Origin: Paenibacillaceae bacterium
GTDB taxonomy: Bacteria > Bacillota > Bacilli > Paenibacillales > NBRC-103111
Length of the DNA stretch: 64,000 bases
Direction of reading: 5' to 3'
Assembly (NCBI GenBank): GCA_029256185.1
Contig: JAQSYI010000048.1
Location: 1-64,000, forward strand
A program made the position numbers and the translations under genes. Shown piece by piece: positions 31,243-60,596 of this stretch. Within the stretch, counting starts at the first letter, position 1. The number at the start of each line of letters is the position of its first letter. Under the pieces are notes generated by a model. The model was not told where the DNA came from, ran no database searches, and saw nothing but the letters and a program-made list of their open reading frames with translations.

Positions 31243-31320
31243 TTAGAACTTTTCCGGATGAATCAAGGCGTAGACCAAGTAGAGGAATACCAGCAAGGTC
31301 ACCGCAATCACCACAGTCAT
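31243..31320 (-). CDS. kdpF: Potassium-transporting ATPase subunit F, 25 aa
   Basis: A single-helix membrane peptide of 25 residues (MTVVIAVTLLVFLYLVYALI then HPEKF). The length and the hydrophobic helix followed by a short polar HPE(K/R)F tail are the KdpF hallmark. AAGGAGGGG lies seven bases before the ATG at 31320. Its start overlaps the stop of the 36-codon ORF upstream (ATGA), so the two are coupled. KdpF is a small stabilising subunit of the Kdp complex. Confidence 0.9.
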   Translation of the reverse strand: MTVVIAVTLLVFLYLVYALIHPEKF

Positions 31321-53152: not shown

Positions 53153-54148
53153 ATGAGCATTAACTTTGCGTCATGGATGCGGCCGGTTCCGCGTCAGGCC
53201 GTGTTCAGGCAGGAAGGGTATCATGTGTGGTGCGGCACCGTGCTCCAAGGTCCCGAAGGAAGGTATCATATGCTGTTCTCCCGCTGGCCTCAGGAGCTGG
53301 GGCATCAAGGCTGGGTCACTCATTCGGAGATCGGTTATGCTTCCGCCGACAATCCGTTGGGGCCATTCCGGTTTGAGCGGGTCATCATGACTGGAGCCGG
53401 AGGAGAAGCGTGGGATCGGGATGTGGTCCATAACCCGGCTATGATCGAGCATGAAGGGGAATATTACTTGTATTATACGGGGAATTATGGAGACGGCAGC
53501 TTCTGGAACCACAGGAATCACCAACGGATCGGCGTTGCCGCGGCCAGTCATCCCTCCGGCCCGTGGCGGCGGTTCGCAGAGCCCTTGATTGACGTCAGTC
53601 CCGGCGCCTGGGATACGCATATCACCGCCAACCCTACAGTTGCCAGAGGGGGGGACGGACGGTTCTATATGGTGTACAAAGGCGTTGGCCCGGGAACGCT
53701 GCCCCGGGGCGGAGCCGTGGTTTGCGGGGTAGCCGTTGCCGATCATCCTGCCGGTCCGTTTTGCAAGCTGCATGGCCCCATTATGGTGAATCCCGGTAAC
53801 GACTGGTCTGTGGAGGACCCTTACATCTGGTGGCAGGAGGACCGGTTCTATGCCCTGGTCAAAGATTTTCAGGGTTATTTCACCGGGACCGGAGAAAGCT
53901 CCGTCGCCCTCTTCCACTCTTGCGATGGCATAGACTGGTCTGCGTCACAGTGTCCCTTGGCCTTCAAACGGGAAATTCATTGGGAGGACGGCGCCATTAC
54001 CCGGGTGGATGCTCTGGAGCGTCCTCAGCTGCTTTTTGACCGGCAGAACCGCCCCGTTGTTCTTTATTGCGCCGTCGGCGAAGATCCGGAGCGAAATATT
54101 TCCTATAATATTGCCATTCCGCTGGAAGGGACCGGAGCAGGGGAATAA
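53153..54148 (+). CDS. GH43-like five-bladed-propeller glycosidase
   Basis: A 331-aa cytoplasmic-type protein (no signal peptide) with repeated propeller motifs VHNPAMIEHEGEYYLYYTGN, DTHITANPTVARGGDGRFYMVYKG and SVEDPYIWWQEDRFYALVKD. The arrangement fits GH43/GH117-like enzymes; VEDPYIW holds a likely acidic catalytic residue. It follows the GH106-like gene by 41 bp with GGGAGG before ATG 53153, so both form one operon. Substrate is unknown and is probably a short oligosaccharide imported by the divergent transporter. The last 152 bp overlap the opposite-strand membrane gene. Confidence 0.75.
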   Translation: MSINFASWMRPVPRQAVFRQEGYHVWCGTVLQGPEGRYHMLFSRWPQELGHQGWVTHSEIGYASADNPLGPFRFERVIMTGAGGEAWDRDVVHNPAMIEHEGEYYLYYTGNYGDGSFWNHRNHQRIGVAAASHPSGPWRRFAEPLIDVSPGAWDTHITANPTVARGGDGRFYMVYKGVGPGTLPRGGAVVCGVAVADHPAGPFCKLHGPIMVNPGNDWSVEDPYIWWQEDRFYALVKDFQGYFTGTGESSVALFHSCDGIDWSASQCPLAFKREIHWEDGAITRVDALERPQLLFDRQNRPVVLYCAVGEDPERNISYNIAIPLEGTGAGE

Positions 54149-54818
54149 TTCGCCTTGCGCTTTCCCTCTCCGGATTCCTTAATATCATATACAGCCCGAT
54201 CAAAGCTGCCAAAGTGCCAAAGATAATGCCGGACATTCCGTTATAAAAGCTGGTGTCTCCCTCGTGCGTGAAGGACATGATAGCCGTTTGCGTCAGCACC
54301 AGTGAAATCAGAGACGATGCCAGGTTCGTCAGCTTAATTGCCTCAATGACCGGCTCTTCGTTGCGCCTCGCCGAAACTGCACCATGCAGGGATACGGCAA
54401 TTTCGGTAAAAGTAACCGCGGCAATTGCGATGGCAATGTATTCGTGATACCGGGTAACGTCATCGCCAAAGAACAGAATTTTCAAGCAATAGACCAGATA
54501 TACGATACTTGACGCCAGTACTATAACTCCAATAAGCCGGTAGGCATTGTGCTGCATTCTCCGAATCTCCGCCGGATCGGCAGCGGCAAGATGAGCCTTG
54601 GCATCCTCATGCGCTTTTACTGCTGAATATTTGGCGCAAGCGATACCGATGTTATAAAAGGCGTTTACGCATAAAAAAACGGAGAACGAAAAAATTCCCA
54701 ATACGATCTTTCCCACGGCCATTACTGCGTTGAGCGGCACGGACATTCTGGCAAAATAGATGCTGCGGCTGTATTTGGTGTGCAAGGCTTTCTCCTTTTC
54801 TCTTACGCGGCGGTGCAT
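53997..54818 (-). CDS. Polytopic membrane protein, last gene of the small-membrane-protein cassette
   Basis: A 273-aa protein with about six TM segments (SVPLNAVMAVGKIVLGIFSF, VIVLASSIVYLVYCLKILFF, ITFTEIAVSLHGAVSA and others). I do not recognise the family; the first helices are faintly like cation-diffusion facilitators, but no metal motif is present. The start ATG 54818 (MHRRVREKEK) has GTGAGG upstream. The C-terminal ~50 residues after NPERESARR are read from the antisense of the GH43-like gene (152-bp overlap) and are Arg/Gln/Glu-rich, so the original stop may have been lost. It belongs to a four-gene operon starting at 55538. Confidence 0.65.
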   Translation of the reverse strand: MHRRVREKEKALHTKYSRSIYFARMSVPLNAVMAVGKIVLGIFSFSVFLCVNAFYNIGIACAKYSAVKAHEDAKAHLAAADPAEIRRMQHNAYRLIGVIVLASSIVYLVYCLKILFFGDDVTRYHEYIAIAIAAVTFTEIAVSLHGAVSARRNEEPVIEAIKLTNLASSLISLVLTQTAIMSFTHEGDTSFYNGMSGIIFGTLAALIGLYMILRNPERESARRIIPLLRSLPAEWQYYRKYFAPDLRRRRNKEQRGGSAGQKAAEDAPEHPPG

Positions 54819-54850
54819 CCGGTTTGCCTCACAGGCTTCTGATGCACCGC

Positions 54851-54937
54851 TCAATGATTCGCCGACTTGCGGCCCTTGATAAGATCTATAATCCAGGCTA
54901 CAAAAAAGGCCAGGGCTACTCCTATGATAATCTCCAT
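54851..54937 (-). CDS. Small membrane protein, 28 aa
   Basis: ATG 54937 to TGA 54851. The product begins MEIIIGVALAFFVAWIIDLI and ends with a short basic tail (KGRKSANH). It is a single hydrophobic helix plus a basic tail on the cytoplasmic side. TGGAGGTGGTTGCAG lies directly upstream, a strong ribosome site. It lies between the 41-aa gene and the 273-aa membrane gene, all on the same strand and closely spaced. Function is unknown. Confidence 0.6.
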   Translation of the reverse strand: MEIIIGVALAFFVAWIIDLIKGRKSANH

Positions 54938-54985
54938 CTGCAACCACCTCCATTCAGCCGCCGAAATCCGGCACCGTTATGCCGT

Positions 54986-55111
54986 TTAATCCCAGAATAT
55001 AAAATCGATCCGCTCCACCCCGCCGCAGGCGGTTCCGATTGCCCCAAGAATAAGTCCCGCAACGATGCAGCCGATAGATCCCCATTTCACCCATTGTCTA
55101 GATGGAGTCAT
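54986..55111 (-). CDS. Small membrane protein, 41 aa
   Basis: ATG 55111 to TAA 54986. The product has a polar start (MTPSRQWVKWGS), a Gly-rich membrane helix (IGCIVAGLILGAIGTACGG) and an acidic end (VERIDFIFWD). Its start overlaps the end of the 146-aa gene by 14 bases, which implies translational coupling. The Gly-spaced helix would suit close packing with another membrane protein of the cassette. Confidence 0.65.
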   Translation of the reverse strand: MTPSRQWVKWGSIGCIVAGLILGAIGTACGGVERIDFIFWD

Positions 55112-55538
55112 ACTTTGCCCTCGCCTCCGCCTTCAGCTCTATGAATTTTCTGGTTATTTCCTGCGAGAGAGTCAGATAGCCGTTGAAAAATTCCTTGGCA
55201 ATTTTGAACATGGGCATAGTCATGCCGAAGCCGATAAAGCCGCACCCCAGCGCCAGCGTAACCGCACCGAACCCGTTGGCAGTATTGGCAACCGCGCCCG
55301 CTATTCCGCAGATGCCGATGGCGGCCGCGGAAGCTGACACAAAAAAGGTCATGCCCACCAGAAACCAGCCGCAGCCGATCAACATCCCCATCATCGCAAC
55401 GGCAACAATGGCCACTGGAATCAATATGGGCCAGCCCAGAGTAATGATGGCAAATTTGCGTGTGCTCATGGTGCTTTTTTCCGCGGCGGCAGCTTCGTGC
55501 TGCGGCTTATTGTCTTTCTCTACCCCTTGTGCTTCCAT
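55098..55538 (-). CDS. Membrane protein, HAAS/DUF1700-associated type, 146 aa
   Basis: The first gene of the cassette. The N-terminal ~25 residues are hydrophilic, followed by three or four membrane segments (GWPILIPVAIVAVAMMGMLIG, FLVGMTFFVSASAAAIGIC, ANTANGFGAVTLALGCGFIGFGMT). A C-terminal helix (LSQEITRKFIELKAEARAKY) ends the protein. Gly/Ala-rich membrane proteins of this sort occur near PadR genes with HAAS or DUF1700 domains, but none of those domains is clearly present. ATG 55538 follows AAAGGAG. It is divergent from padR, with two PadR-type boxes between them. Confidence 0.75.
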   Translation of the reverse strand: MEAQGVEKDNKPQHEAAAAEKSTMSTRKFAIITLGWPILIPVAIVAVAMMGMLIGCGWFLVGMTFFVSASAAAIGICGIAGAVANTANGFGAVTLALGCGFIGFGMTMPMFKIAKEFFNGYLTLSQEITRKFIELKAEARAKYDSI

Positions 55539-55670: not shown

Positions 55671-55732
55671 ATATGTCATCATTGACATATAAACTGTGGT
55701 ATTTTATGATGGATATATCATAACTGACATAT
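55671..55732. promoter_or_regulatory. Two PadR-type operators
   Basis: Box 1 (55671-55690) contains ATGTCATCATTGACAT, which is ATGT-N8-ACAT exactly as in PadR operators and fully palindromic at the ends. Box 2 (55713-55732) has ATAT-N8-ACAT. They lie between the divergent cassette and padR. Confidence 0.8.
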
Positions 55733-55790: not shown

Positions 55791-56360
55791 TTGAATAAAT
55801 TATCTTACGGGCTTCTCAGCCTGCTATCCACACAGCCGATGACCGGTTATGACCTGACCATGAAGATCAACAGATTCTGGCGTTCTACTCACAGCGCTAT
55901 CTATCCCTTGCTATCCGAATTGGAGGACTTGGGATATGTGGAATTCGTATTAGAGAAGCAAAGCGGCAAACCGGATAAAAAAACATACAGCCTGACTCCT
56001 CAAGGGAAGAACCTGCTGCATGAGTGGTTCATGTCCGATACGGGCGACGAAGTGATCCGGGATGAGATGATGCTTAAGCTGTATTGCATAAAATGCGTAA
56101 GTCCCGAGGCTGCCGGCAAGATTCTCGATGAGCTTGAAGCAAGATGCAGAAGAAAGATTGCAGAATACAATAGCCTGATTAACAAGTTCAGGTCCATGGA
56201 GCATTCCGAAGCTGCGGCTTCCTCCTTGTTCGGCTCTTACATCTTGACCCAGCGGGCCTTGAATGAAGCCAAGCTGGATCTCGTCTGGTGCGAATGGGTC
56301 AGAAAGCTGTATGAGGACAAGGCTTCCCGCTTCTGGATTGATGATTTTCACTACGAATAG
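55791..56360 (+). CDS. PadR-family transcriptional regulator
   Basis: A 189-aa regulator. The N-terminal winged helix (1-85) has NKLSYGLLSLLSTQPMTGYDL, RSTHSAIYPLLSELEDLGYVEF and KKTYSLTPQGKNLLHEWF. The C-terminal ~100 residues are a helical dimerisation domain of the longer PadR class. The start is TTG 55791 with a strong AAGGAGGTGAACC. Two ATGT-N8-ACAT boxes lie upstream (55671-55732), so it probably represses itself and the divergent membrane cassette. The SDR gene follows by 45 bp on the same strand, so it may form an operon with it. Confidence 0.9.
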   Translation: MNKLSYGLLSLLSTQPMTGYDLTMKINRFWRSTHSAIYPLLSELEDLGYVEFVLEKQSGKPDKKTYSLTPQGKNLLHEWFMSDTGDEVIRDEMMLKLYCIKCVSPEAAGKILDELEARCRRKIAEYNSLINKFRSMEHSEAAASSLFGSYILTQRALNEAKLDLVWCEWVRKLYEDKASRFWIDDFHYE

Positions 56361-56405
56361 GTGTTCATAGCAGTTTATTCTTATACAGAAACGGGGAATG
56401 AAAGA

Positions 56406-57167
56406 ATGGGCCAATCAAGCGGAAGACTTGCAGGAAAGGTTGCATTAATTACAGGGGCAGGCAATGGGATCGGGTACGCCACGGCGAAGCTGTTCGCCGA
56501 AGAGGGGGCAACGGTGATCGCCGCCGACATCTCGGAGAAAGACCTCGCCCAATGGGACGGCGTAGAAAATGTGATTCCGGTCCTTGCCGACATCACCAAG
56601 CTGGAGGACATTGAACGCATGGTTGGAGAAGCGGAGAGCCGGTTCGGCCGGTTGGATGCCCTGTGCAATATTGCCGGGATCAACGATCTGAGCTATCCTC
56701 TTGACGAAACAGATGATGAACGCTGGGACCGGGTGCACAATATTGATTTGAAAGCTCCCTTCCGGATATGCCGCCGGGCTGTTCCCACCATGATTCAAGG
56801 CGGCGGAGGCGCAATCGTCAATATCGGGTCATACGCTGCGCTGCGGGGAAACCACGGTCCCAGCTATACGGCTGCAAAGGCGGGAGTAGTCGGATTAACC
56901 AAGAGCATCGCCGTGGGATACGGGAAACAGGGAATCCGCTGCAATGTGATTCATCCCGGCGGGACCAGAACCGACATTGGCCAGCATTCGGGCGGGAATT
57001 ATCATCCCGCCGGACAAGCGCTATCCAAAACGATCATGACCTTCCCCGTGAACTGGTTTGGTATGCCGGAGGATATTGCCAGGACCTGCCTGTTCCTGTG
57101 CAGCGACGACTCCAAGCAAATCAACGGAGCCGAGATTGCGGTGGACGGCGGCATGAGCTGCTGCTAG
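56406..57167 (+). CDS. Short-chain dehydrogenase/reductase
   Basis: A classical SDR of 253 aa. The cofactor motif is TGAGNGIG (about 15-22), the NNAG-like motif is NIAGI, and the active site is Ser in NIGSYAAL with YTAAKAG (Tyr-x3-Lys). The C-terminal INGAEIAVDGGMSCC matches the usual DGG end. An acidic residue after the second beta strand (AADIS) predicts NAD(H). ATG 56406 follows GGGGAATGAAAG. It is translated from the padR transcript. The substrate is unknown, possibly the compound sensed by PadR. Confidence 0.88.
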   Translation: MGQSSGRLAGKVALITGAGNGIGYATAKLFAEEGATVIAADISEKDLAQWDGVENVIPVLADITKLEDIERMVGEAESRFGRLDALCNIAGINDLSYPLDETDDERWDRVHNIDLKAPFRICRRAVPTMIQGGGGAIVNIGSYAALRGNHGPSYTAAKAGVVGLTKSIAVGYGKQGIRCNVIHPGGTRTDIGQHSGGNYHPAGQALSKTIMTFPVNWFGMPEDIARTCLFLCSDDSKQINGAEIAVDGGMSCC

Positions 57168-57383: not shown

Positions 57384-58733
57384 TCAAACCGTAAACAGAC
57401 CAACGGATTTTTTCAACCGTTCCGACAAGTCGTTTTGTCTCTCCGTTGAAGCGGCTGTTTCGTCCATCGCCGAAGAAATCTCTGACAGATTGGCGCTGAT
57501 TTCCTCGACGGAGCTCAGTGTTTTTCCCGACATGTCCGATACGGCCTCAATCACGGTGCCGATATCCCCGATGGATTGGTTGACCACCTTGGCACAGGCA
57601 TCCACATCTGCCGATATGTTATAGATAAACTGGGCGTCATGCTCATATTTCATCCCTGTTTGAAGCAGCAGCTGGAACTCCGACTTTACATCGGTGTTGA
57701 TATAATCCAGCACCTTCTTGGAGCTTAGTGACAGATGACCGAATACTTCTCTGATCCGGGCCAGAATATGATCAATGTCGGCGATGGCGTTGGCAGACTG
57801 CTCAGCCAATTTCTTCACCTCCTGGGCCACCACTGCGAAGCCTCTCCCCTGCTCTCCCGCCCGGGAAGCCTCTATGGAGGCATTCAATGCCAATATATTG
57901 GTTTGGGAGGCTATGCTTTTGATCGTATTGGCGATAATTTCGATTTCATCTATGATCTTGCCGTCTTCGATTGCTTGTAAAATATCCTCCTGCCTTTCGG
58001 TGTAGATTGCACCGGCGACGCGGATTGACTCCATCATTTCATTCTTCATCTGCAAGGCAGTGGCCTGCATGCCGCGGGATGACTCCATCACGTTGTGCGC
58101 CTTTTCCAGGAGAGTGCCTGTTACCGAACGGATTTCCTGGGCGGAGGCATGGGCTTCCTCCATATTGGCGGTCAATGTTTCGGTTTCCCCGGACAGCTTC
58201 ATGGAAGAAGTATTGATGTTGCTGATGGCACAAGAGGATTCATTCACCGAAACTACTAAGCTGGAGCTTGAACCGCTGATAATCCGGGCAGCATCCGAAA
58301 TATCGGACAACAGGAGCTTGATATTCCCGACAGCCTTGTTCAAGGATTTTGCCAATTGGCTGATTTCATCATTTCCTTTAGACACAAGCTCCCGGGAAAA
58401 GATGCCTCTGCCCATTTCCTCCGTATAGGCCATTACCCGTTTGAGCCTTCTTAACACCAATCTGTCATATACAACTACAATAATAACGGAACAGATGATA
58501 ATGTTTAACACTGTGGTAACGGCCACACCCAATGAGCCATCCAAAAACCGCGTGCCGATACCCATGTCATCCAACAGCTGTCTCCCTTGATAGATGGATA
58601 CGTTGATGGCTCCTCCTATATTGGCGCTTAATATCTGAACAATAACCACTGCTAATACCAGCTTGAATGTTATGGAATTTACGGTCATCTTTAATAGCCG
58701 TTCCTTGAATGTCTGTTGTTCCTTCTCTCTCAT
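57384..58733 (-). CDS. Methyl-accepting chemotaxis protein without large sensor domain
   Basis: A chemoreceptor of 449 aa. TM1 is [21 protein letters not shown] (about 14-34), and TM2 is [25 protein letters not shown] (about 67-91). Only ~30 residues lie outside the membrane between them. Then come a HAMP-like stretch and the signalling domain, with the hairpin tip [40 protein letters not shown]. The start is ATG 58733 (MREKEQQ) with GGGGAGG upstream; the long N-terminal extension of the frame is antisense to the OmpR-type gene and is not coding. It probably senses a membrane or cytoplasmic signal. It is divergent from the two-component pair at 58873. Confidence 0.92.
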
Positions 58734-58872
58734 GCCACAGCCTCCCCATTCGTTGTTAGCGGTAAATTCAAGCCTTCCCGCTTGGTAAGGCCAGTTTAAC
58801 CGGACAAGGTAAATTAAACGTAAACATCCCGAAAATCCTGATTGGCAAGGATAGCGGATAAGGAGAATCCAG

Positions 58873-59556
58873 ATGGCCACCATCCTGATTGTGGAAGACG
58901 ATAAAAATACGCAGCTGCTGACCGCTGCGCGCTTGAAGCCCCATTTCCATGTGGTATGCGCCAATGACGGGCTGGAAGCATTGGACAAACTGCACACCCA
59001 GAGCATTGACCTCGTCATCGCCGATGTGATGATGCCGCGGATGGACGGGTACTCGCTTTTGAAGACACTGCGCGCAGAGCAGCGCCATACACCGGTATTG
59101 CTGCTGACCGCCAAGCAGTCGTTCGAGGACAAGCGGGAGGGATTTTCTGCGGGAACCGACGATTATATGACCAAGCCCATCGACTATGAGGAATTGATGT
59201 GGCGCATCAATGCGTTATTGAGAAGATCGCAAATTGCAAGCGAGCGGAAAATCGTGATCGGCTCCATTGCCGTTGACTCGGCCGCTTATTCGGTGATTAT
59301 GGACGGCAAGACCATCGAGCTGCCAAAAAAAGAATTCGAGCTGCTGTTCAAATTGCTCTCCTACCCCAATATGATCTTTACCCGAAACCAGCTGCTTAAT
59401 GATATATGGGGCTTCGATTCCGAGAGCGGCGAGGACACGATAAAAACCCATATCAGCAGACTCCGCAATAAACTGAAGGATTGCAAAGAATTTGAGGTGG
59501 TCACGATCAAGGGGTTGGGATACAAGGCGGAGATCCGGGAGGGGCGCAAGCCATGA
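58873..59556 (+). CDS. OmpR-family response regulator
   Basis: A 227-aa regulator. The receiver (1-115) has EDDKN, phospho-acceptor Asp in [14 protein letters not shown], the Thr in LLLTAKQSF and the Lys in [11 protein letters not shown]. The winged helix (about 130-225) has [31 protein letters not shown] and [31 protein letters not shown] 58873 follows AAGGAG. It overlaps the kinase gene by four bases (ATGA). The target genes are unknown; they may include the pair itself. Confidence 0.93.
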
Positions 59557-60596
59557 CCAAACAAGCCGCGGATACCACCACCCAAAAAGTGACGGCCTGG
59601 CTTGTCCTGCAATCCTTCATCATTATTGCCGCAGCCGTTCTGTCTTTTATGTTCGTGGAATTTGCCGCCAATCTGGATTCACTGGGCGACGGGGGCGGAT
59701 TTCAGATCTTCAGCCATGCCATAGGCATCATCATTCCCATGGCAGCGGTCTTGGGGGCGCTTAACTACTATTTGTCCAAGTTCATCTATCAGTATGTCTC
59801 CATCCTTGCAGGCGGGATTGAAAAAGTGGCCAACGGCGATTTTCAGACTACATTGGATGTGAAGAAAGCAGGTCCCTTTGCACCCGTGTATGAAAACTTC
59901 AACAAGATGGGCGCAGAATTGCAGAATGTGCAGGCGCTGCGCAACGACTTTATTAACAACTATTCACATGAATTCAAAACGCCGATCACCTCCATCAACG
60001 GGTTTGCCGAACTGCTGCTGGAAACAGAGGTGACAGCGCAGGATCAGCAACGGTATTTGAGAATCATCGCCGAGGAATCGGCGCGGCTGACCCATATGGC
60101 CGACAGCACCATTCTCCTGTCCAAATTGAATGCCCAGCACATTATCCCGGATCAAAAGCTTTATTCTCTCGATGAACAGTTGAGGCAATGCGCCATTCTG
60201 TTATCGTTCGAATGGACGCGCAAGGAAATTGAGTTCGTTGGCAGCTTCCAACCGGTCATGTATCACGGCAATGCGGAATTAATGAGCCATCTATGGATCA
60301 ATCTGTTGAGCAATGCCATCAAATTCACACCCGAGCATGGAGAAATCACGGTCACATCGTCAGAGTCCAACGGGAAAATCACCGTTCAAATATCCGATAC
60401 GGGCGTAGGCATGAGCGAGGATGTGATTTCGCATATTTTCGATCAATACTATCAAGGGGAAACTGCACATTCCGTCCGCGGGCTGGGGCTGGGGCTGTCG
60501 ATTGCCAAGAGGATCGCCGAGCTCTGCAAGGGAACCATCGAAGTCCGAAGCGTTGAAAACGAGGGAAGCACCTTCACCGTAACGCTGCCGGGATAG
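59553..60596 (+). CDS. Sensor histidine kinase, partner of the OmpR-type regulator
   Basis: A 347-aa kinase with two TM helices near the N-terminus (VTAWLVLQSFIIIAAAVLSFMFVEF and IIIPMAAVLGALNYYLSKF) and only ~25 residues between them. A HAMP domain, the His box (NNYSHEFKTPITSINGF) and an HATPase (WINLLSNAIKFTPEHG, VQISDTGVGM, GLGLGLSIAKRIAEL) follow. Small extracytoplasmic loops of this kind are seen in kinases that sense the membrane or a partner protein. The start overlaps the regulator stop (ATGA). No partner transporter is adjacent. Confidence 0.92.
   Translation: MTKQAADTTTQKVTAWLVLQSFIIIAAAVLSFMFVEFAANLDSLGDGGGFQIFSHAIGIIIPMAAVLGALNYYLSKFIYQYVSILAGGIEKVANGDFQTTLDVKKAGPFAPVYENFNKMGAELQNVQALRNDFINNYSHEFKTPITSINGFAELLLETEVTAQDQQRYLRIIAEESARLTHMADSTILLSKLNAQHIIPDQKLYSLDEQLRQCAILLSFEWTRKEIEFVGSFQPVMYHGNAELMSHLWINLLSNAIKFTPEHGEITVTSSESNGKITVQISDTGVGMSEDVISHIFDQYYQGETAHSVRGLGLGLSIAKRIAELCKGTIEVRSVENEGSTFTVTLPG

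Follow-up and report, generated by a model that had tools for sequence, protein, structure and literature searches.

Organization of the padR locus

The window (the whole stretch of 64,000 nucleotides that was analysed) carries padR together with a cassette that is encoded divergently, on the minus strand, and consists of ORFs of 146, 41 and 28 aa and one long polytopic ORF; all of these are present as the original prediction had described. The long ORF is called CDF-like here, after the cation diffusion facilitators with which it is compared below, and the positions of all features are listed in Table 1. The short-chain dehydrogenase gene immediately 3' of padR is perhaps co-transcribed with it.

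Table 1. Features of the padR region in the window.
Feature	Position	Strand	Description
CDF-like six-helix membrane protein, no zinc site	53997-54785	-	262 aa from TTG (probable start), AAAGGAG ribosome site
28-aa single-helix ORF	54851-54937	-	GGAGGTGG ribosome site
41-aa single-helix ORF	54986-55111	-	homology to C-terminal helix of Saccharibacillus fused protein
146-aa four-helix membrane protein	55098-55538	-	N-terminal part of Saccharibacillus fused protein
PadR box 1	55671-55690		ATATGTCATCATTGACATAT; exact ATATGTCA-N4-TGACATAT; overlaps padR -35
Predicted padR promoter	55682-55710	+	TTGACA-17-TATGAT, 11/12; -35 within box 1
Predicted cassette promoter, weak	55701-55730	-	ATGTCA-18-TAAAAT, 9/12; box 2 overlaps
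PadR box 2	55713-55732		one mismatch to 20-bp palindrome; ATAT-N8-ACAT
padR	55791-56360	+	189 aa, PadR-s1 type: PadR wHTH + Vir_act_alpha_C
Short-chain dehydrogenase (SDR)	56361-57167	+	immediately 3' of padR
Methyl-accepting chemotaxis-type protein (HAMP + MCPsignal)	57384-59132	-	between padR/SDR pair and two-component genes
OmpR-type response regulator + histidine kinase	58873-60596	+	same subfamily as those flanking the CDF-like genes of relatives

The 41-aa ORF begins with an ATG within the final codons of the 146-aa ORF, whose stop it overlaps by 14 nt, and GAGGG precedes this ATG at 7-8 nt; the 146-aa ORF has an AAAGGAG site at a long spacing. The long ORF is open back to ATG 54818, which would give 273 aa, and to ATG 54953. 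Because ATG 54818 has only the weak site GTGAGGC and TTG 54785 has AAAGGAG, the start is probably TTG 54785, with a predicted product of 262 aa instead of the 273 aa first assigned to it. Overlapping or close starts with strong ribosome sites had been attributed to the whole cassette; a strong site is present for the 28-aa ORF but not for ATG 54818. For the 146-aa and 28-aa ORFs the codon scores were gene-typical; that of the long ORF was lower, though still positive. The score of the 41-aa ORF is reached by 33% of non-coding frames and gives it no codon support, and its support therefore comes from homology.

PadR and its operators

PadR matched PF03551 with 55.4 bits and PF10400 with 45.7 bits in Pfam, which is the long s1 type. 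The ATGT/ACAT motif has been published as the operator of both PadR subfamilies (PMC3506622). Two ATGT-N8-ACAT boxes had been reported from the region shared by padR and the cassette, and we found the first to be exact and the second to read ATAT-N8-ACAT. With up to one mismatch, the bare motif occurs in the window at chance level (24 seen, 22.3 expected). The extended 20-bp palindrome ATATGTCA-N4-TGACATAT was seen twice where 0.23 were expected, and two or more copies appeared in one of 100 shuffles; in the 8.6-Mb genome, boxes 1 and 2 are its only occurrences with at most one mismatch.

We then compared 20 padR loci, namely that of the window and those of 19 homologues with 41-48% identity. 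The palindrome, with three mismatches or fewer and no further than about 170 bp upstream of the gene, was found at 19 of the 20, that is, at the window's own locus and 18 of the 19 others, and at 13 of the 20 it lies at -32 to -34 with 0-1 mismatch. About 15 of the 19 homologues adjoin an EmrB-like MFS gene, and most face an MFS of one same group. A PadR paralogue in the window's own genome (L083, contig C61; 40%) has two weaker boxes and also faces an EmrB-like MFS gene. The presence of one exact and one single-mismatch palindrome, the best two of the genome, and their counterparts at the homologous loci lend strong support to the proposed control by PadR, and we consider it likely that PadR controls the divergent cassette via these predicted operators. 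As judged from gene order, the cassette of the window replaces the EmrB/MFS efflux gene that most PadR homologues face.

In Listeria, LadR acts as repressor of mdrL, which encodes an MFS pump, and the mdrL and ladR promoters lie close together (PMC6624303). The window shares with this system the PadR-s1 architecture, the ATGT-N8-ACAT operator and a divergent membrane target, and the Paenibacillaceae members of the PadR family face an EmrB-like MFS; in the window, however, the position of the MFS pump is taken by the CDF-like cassette. Moreover, the footprint of the operator leads to a PadR regulon that can be tested directly.

Fold of the CDF-like protein

Scans of the four cassette proteins against Pfam and NCBIfam gave no match above cut-off, and to this extent the statement that no recognised domain explains them was correct. 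It does not hold for the family, however, since an orthologue in Clostridium sp. (L048, 56% identical to the window protein) matched Pfam PF01545 Cation_efflux over residues 15-195 with 38.5 bits (E 1.4e-9; the cut-off is 26.6 bits, and the window protein itself scores below it). In the alignment, L048 retains HPDGYGKGE where true CDFs read HPFGHGRAE (the HPxGxGxxE signature of TM2-TM3), and an HMM of the CDF-like family also retrieves true CDFs (L039, L040).

The AlphaFold model of the window protein was built from ten sequences, template-free and with no true CDF in the alignment, and had a pLDDT of 73. At E <= 0.05, Foldseek returned only ZnT and YiiP for this model (E 1.2e-4), and in the VIA comparison it reached Z 16.1 over 205-209 residues with ZnT/YiiP, unrelated rows being at about 8; human ZnT7, ZnT1 and ZnT8 and bacterial YiiP ranked above all other structures. 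When the orthologue and the family profile were used as queries in sequence searches of the PDB, no real match came up; only the comparison of folds found one. Judging by profile and model, the long protein is a diverged relative of the cation diffusion facilitators (CDF, SLC30/YiiP fold), so that the largest of four membrane proteins described as unrecognised can be given a family.

Loss of the metal site

Zinc site A of YiiP is tetrahedral and consists of Asp45, Asp49, His153 and Asp157 (D45/D49/H153/D157) of TM2 and TM5 (PMC6465983). In the alignment, TM2 of the window protein (VFLCVNAFYNIGIACAKYSAVK) contains no Asp, Glu or His and TM5 (VIEAIKLTNLASSLISLVLTQ) no Asp or His; therefore, site A is absent whatever the exact register. 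The two TM2 aspartates are kept in none of the aligned relatives, and a TM5 aspartate is possibly retained in L031, L030 and L007 (FTDAMVS). Residues 205-261 of the model are low-confidence helices or disorder, with no recognisable C-terminal domain. Compared with the CDFs (YiiP, ZnT/SLC30; PF01545), the protein thus has in common the six-helix fold, the profile similarity and, in orthologue L048, the signature, whereas it differs in lacking the site A residues and a recognisable C-terminal domain and in its position beside PadR, TetR or two-component regulators.

From this residue pattern, metal transport has very probably been lost. An ordinary metal exporter whose metal site is unusual would also be consistent with the fold of the model, and some known CDFs, of unclear function, have no C-terminal domain (PMC6465983), but the composition of TM2 in the window, the loss of both TM2 aspartates in the relatives and a context of PadR and MFS instead of metal regulators make such an exporter quite improbable.

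A gene split in the window and fused in Saccharibacillus

A class-wide search with the 146-aa protein found one homologue, a 198-aa ORF of Saccharibacillus (L047), which lies directly upstream of the CDF-like gene, whose start its 3' end overlaps, and is divergent from a response regulator. The 146-aa protein aligns with the first part of this protein (score 103; shuffles 35 +/- 6) and the 41-aa ORF with its C-terminus (score 53; shuffles 22.4 +/- 4.2, 0 of 1000 reaching 53). The same arrangement, with a fused protein of 207 aa, is present in a second Saccharibacillus genome. Going by these alignments, the 41-aa product is a detached piece, the C-terminal helix, of the 198/207-aa protein, which is a single gene in Saccharibacillus, and its earlier description as a protein in its own right was misleading. 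A match of G095 (L006) to the 146-aa query was rejected as chance, the stretch showing no membrane protein of such kind.

Since the 146-aa and 41-aa ORFs match two parts of one protein, they are either two overlapping cistrons or a gene broken by a frameshift. If the frameshift were recent (decay or assembly error), no separate 41-aa protein would exist; the single ORFs of both Saccharibacillus homologues, linker lengths compatible with one ORF and the missing codon-usage support of the 41-aa ORF agree with this. However, an ATG that overlaps the stop of the preceding ORF, with GAGGG ahead of it, is the usual layout of translational coupling, and both the frame and the hydrophobic helix of the 41-aa ORF are intact, and we regard a recent frameshift as rather unlikely. 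The split and fused forms may show a route from a larger protein to a 41-codon membrane 'microprotein'. The second of these Saccharibacillus-group genomes (L054) has, beyond its kinase gene, another member of the fused four-plus-one-helix family, a paralogue of 159 aa (L054:8591-9070).

In the HAAS/DUF1700-DUF4097-PadR operons (LltR, PSP partners; PMC6624303, PMC11237479), PadR also stands beside multi-helix membrane proteins, and the helices of the 146-aa protein loosely recall the TM part. In contrast to those operons, this locus has no HAAS domain and no DUF4097, and its PadR, a long s1 form carrying Vir_act_alpha_C, is encoded divergently and not at the head of the operon. A DUF1700/HAAS identity for the 146-aa protein found no support: Pfam scans of this protein and of the fused 198/207-aa proteins gave no HAAS/DUF1700 match, and TM1 is preceded by no more than some 35 hydrophilic residues. 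A genome search with PF08006 matched nowhere, not even the controls, and is therefore uninformative.

The 28-aa ORF

Only 2% of non-coding frames of equal length have a codon score as high as that of the 28-aa ORF. ORFs of 20-60 aa have 1703 starts in the window, of which only 8 have both a ribosome site and a hydrophobic helix; the two highest distinct ORFs among these are the 28-aa ORF of the cassette and a 25-aa ORF at 31320 on the minus strand. The latter is hydrophobic, has an AGGAGG site and the sequence MTVVIAVTLLVFLYLVYALIHPEKF, and resembles KdpF.

At the loci of relatives examined, the 28-aa ORF had no homologue, and in Saccharibacillus there is no space for it between the fused gene and the CDF-like gene. 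A search for the two small ORFs in related genomes had been proposed as a check; the 41-aa sequence proved to be conserved, though fused, and the 28-aa ORF was absent from the relatives examined. This absence, and the 2% of frames that score equally well, would fit an ORF present by chance in the leader preceding the CDF-like gene, against which stands its place as one of the two highest distinct ORFs among the 8 of 1703 starts with both ribosome site and hydrophobic helix. A chance ORF is a serious possibility here, although we lean towards a genuine one.

Neighbours of the CDF-like family and proposed function

Relatives of the CDF-like protein were found first in two congeners, then by a phylum-wide search and then in named genomes. 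Identity to the window protein was 66-69% in Paenibacillus, 56% in Clostridium sp. DSM 17811 and 39% in Saccharibacillus alkalitolerans; a match of G069 was dismissed as chance (5108-residue open frame). TetR and MFS genes adjoin the CDF-like gene in the Paenibacillus pabuli group, and the same holds for the closest relatives (L041-L046, L049). An OmpR-type regulator and a kinase stand beside it in Clostridium, G193, G106, the two congeners and Saccharibacillus, and five lineages have this arrangement (L048, L031, L029, L007/L008 and Saccharibacillus L047/L054). Near the CDF-like gene of both congeners, of L029 and of the pabuli group lies an MFS gene, and these MFS proteins form one group with about 60% identity. 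In Clostridia, a different TetR is near the gene and a separate four-helix 123-aa gene lies in between (L033, L034; similar in L036, L037), the regulator being divergent from the four-helix protein, which is followed by the CDF-like gene. The layout is like that of the window, but with TetR there and PadR here, and no homology was detected between the 123-aa and the 146-aa proteins.

We propose, with a probability of about 0.5, that the locus encodes a LadR-like PadR-s1 autorepressor and a membrane complex around a CDF devoid of its metal site, serving a xenobiotic or envelope response. In vivo, we infer, PadR would bind both palindromic operators of the intergenic region and so act as a repressor; box 1 would cover the padR -35, and both boxes are placed where the divergent cassette promoter must be. 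A ligand, likely hydrophobic or xenobiotic (a natural product), would release PadR and thereby switch on padR and the cassette. The four-helix protein, the translationally coupled, detached fifth helix of 41 aa, the KdpF-sized 28-aa peptide and the six-helix CDF-fold protein would form one membrane complex, with no zinc transport via the CDF site.

One multi-subunit membrane complex is plausible. Whether the 146-aa, 41-aa and CDF-like products associate is an even bet; association of the first two is favoured because they are halves of one Saccharibacillus protein. For the 146-aa protein, the structure model (pTM 0.37) was too poor to support any interface or to serve as a query in fold comparison. 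The closest relatives of the CDF-like protein, in Paenibacillus (67-69%), have no 146-, 41- or 28-aa partner at their loci; therefore, these partners are not obligatory subunits. A role in xenobiotic or envelope stress is suggested tentatively by the neighbouring genes.

The main alternative to the complex would have the cassette sense on behalf of the nearby kinase: the CDF-like protein and its small partners would be an accessory sensor that passes a membrane signal to an intramembrane-sensing kinase of the neighbouring two-component system, and PadR would only set the level. In favour of this, the CDF-like gene stands beside an OmpR-type regulator and kinase in the five lineages above, the fused gene of Saccharibacillus faces the regulator, and in the window a regulator and a kinase belonging to that subfamily are encoded 2.5 kb beyond padR, the kinase having, by its sequence, just a short loop between two helices. 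However, the closest relatives have TetR and MFS instead and the Clostridia TetR, and the window regulator is 51% identical to the Saccharibacillus regulator, while another in the same genome reaches 55%. This regulator subfamily has five members in the window's genome, and the link to the cassette is therefore only suggestive; we find the sensing role doubtful.

PadR-s1 operators, the CDF fold and small single-helix subunits are each already known. In the open-access literature we found no description of their combination or of a CDF family without metal site under changing regulators, and nothing specific came up there on CDFs without metal site or on PadR boxes. Pseudo-enzymes are well known, but transporters that have lost the substrate site while keeping the fold are far less familiar. 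A CDF relative that lacks its zinc site and is repeatedly found beside regulators and efflux genes is a testable case of a transporter recruited for another task. Further, we speculate, although the odds are against so broad a scheme, that a widespread CDF-fold family of Bacillota lost zinc transport and became an interchangeable sensor or stress module under PadR, two kinds of TetR and OmpR two-component systems, with lineage-specific four-helix and tiny single-helix partners.

Several other features were seen at the loci of relatives. The Clostridial 123-aa four-helix family lies directly 5' of the CDF-like gene with TetR nearby (L033:4743-5114, L034:4974-5345, L037:5660-6037), and the one member scanned had no Pfam match above cut-off. 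The methyl-accepting protein at 57384 has two helices and HAMP and is of another type than the MCP-type protein which in L031 and L029 is encoded 3' of the CDF-like gene, and it was therefore not counted as shared synteny. Four loci have a membrane protein of 177-191 aa, with the kinase on one side and the CDF-like gene on the other (L031:4465-5040, L029:6128-6661, L007:7173-7724, L008:5935-6465); the two proteins scanned had a sub-threshold match to DUF2207_C (E 0.044-0.057). In one congener, the CDF-like gene is split across two frames by a frameshift or sequencing error (L008:6404-7162).
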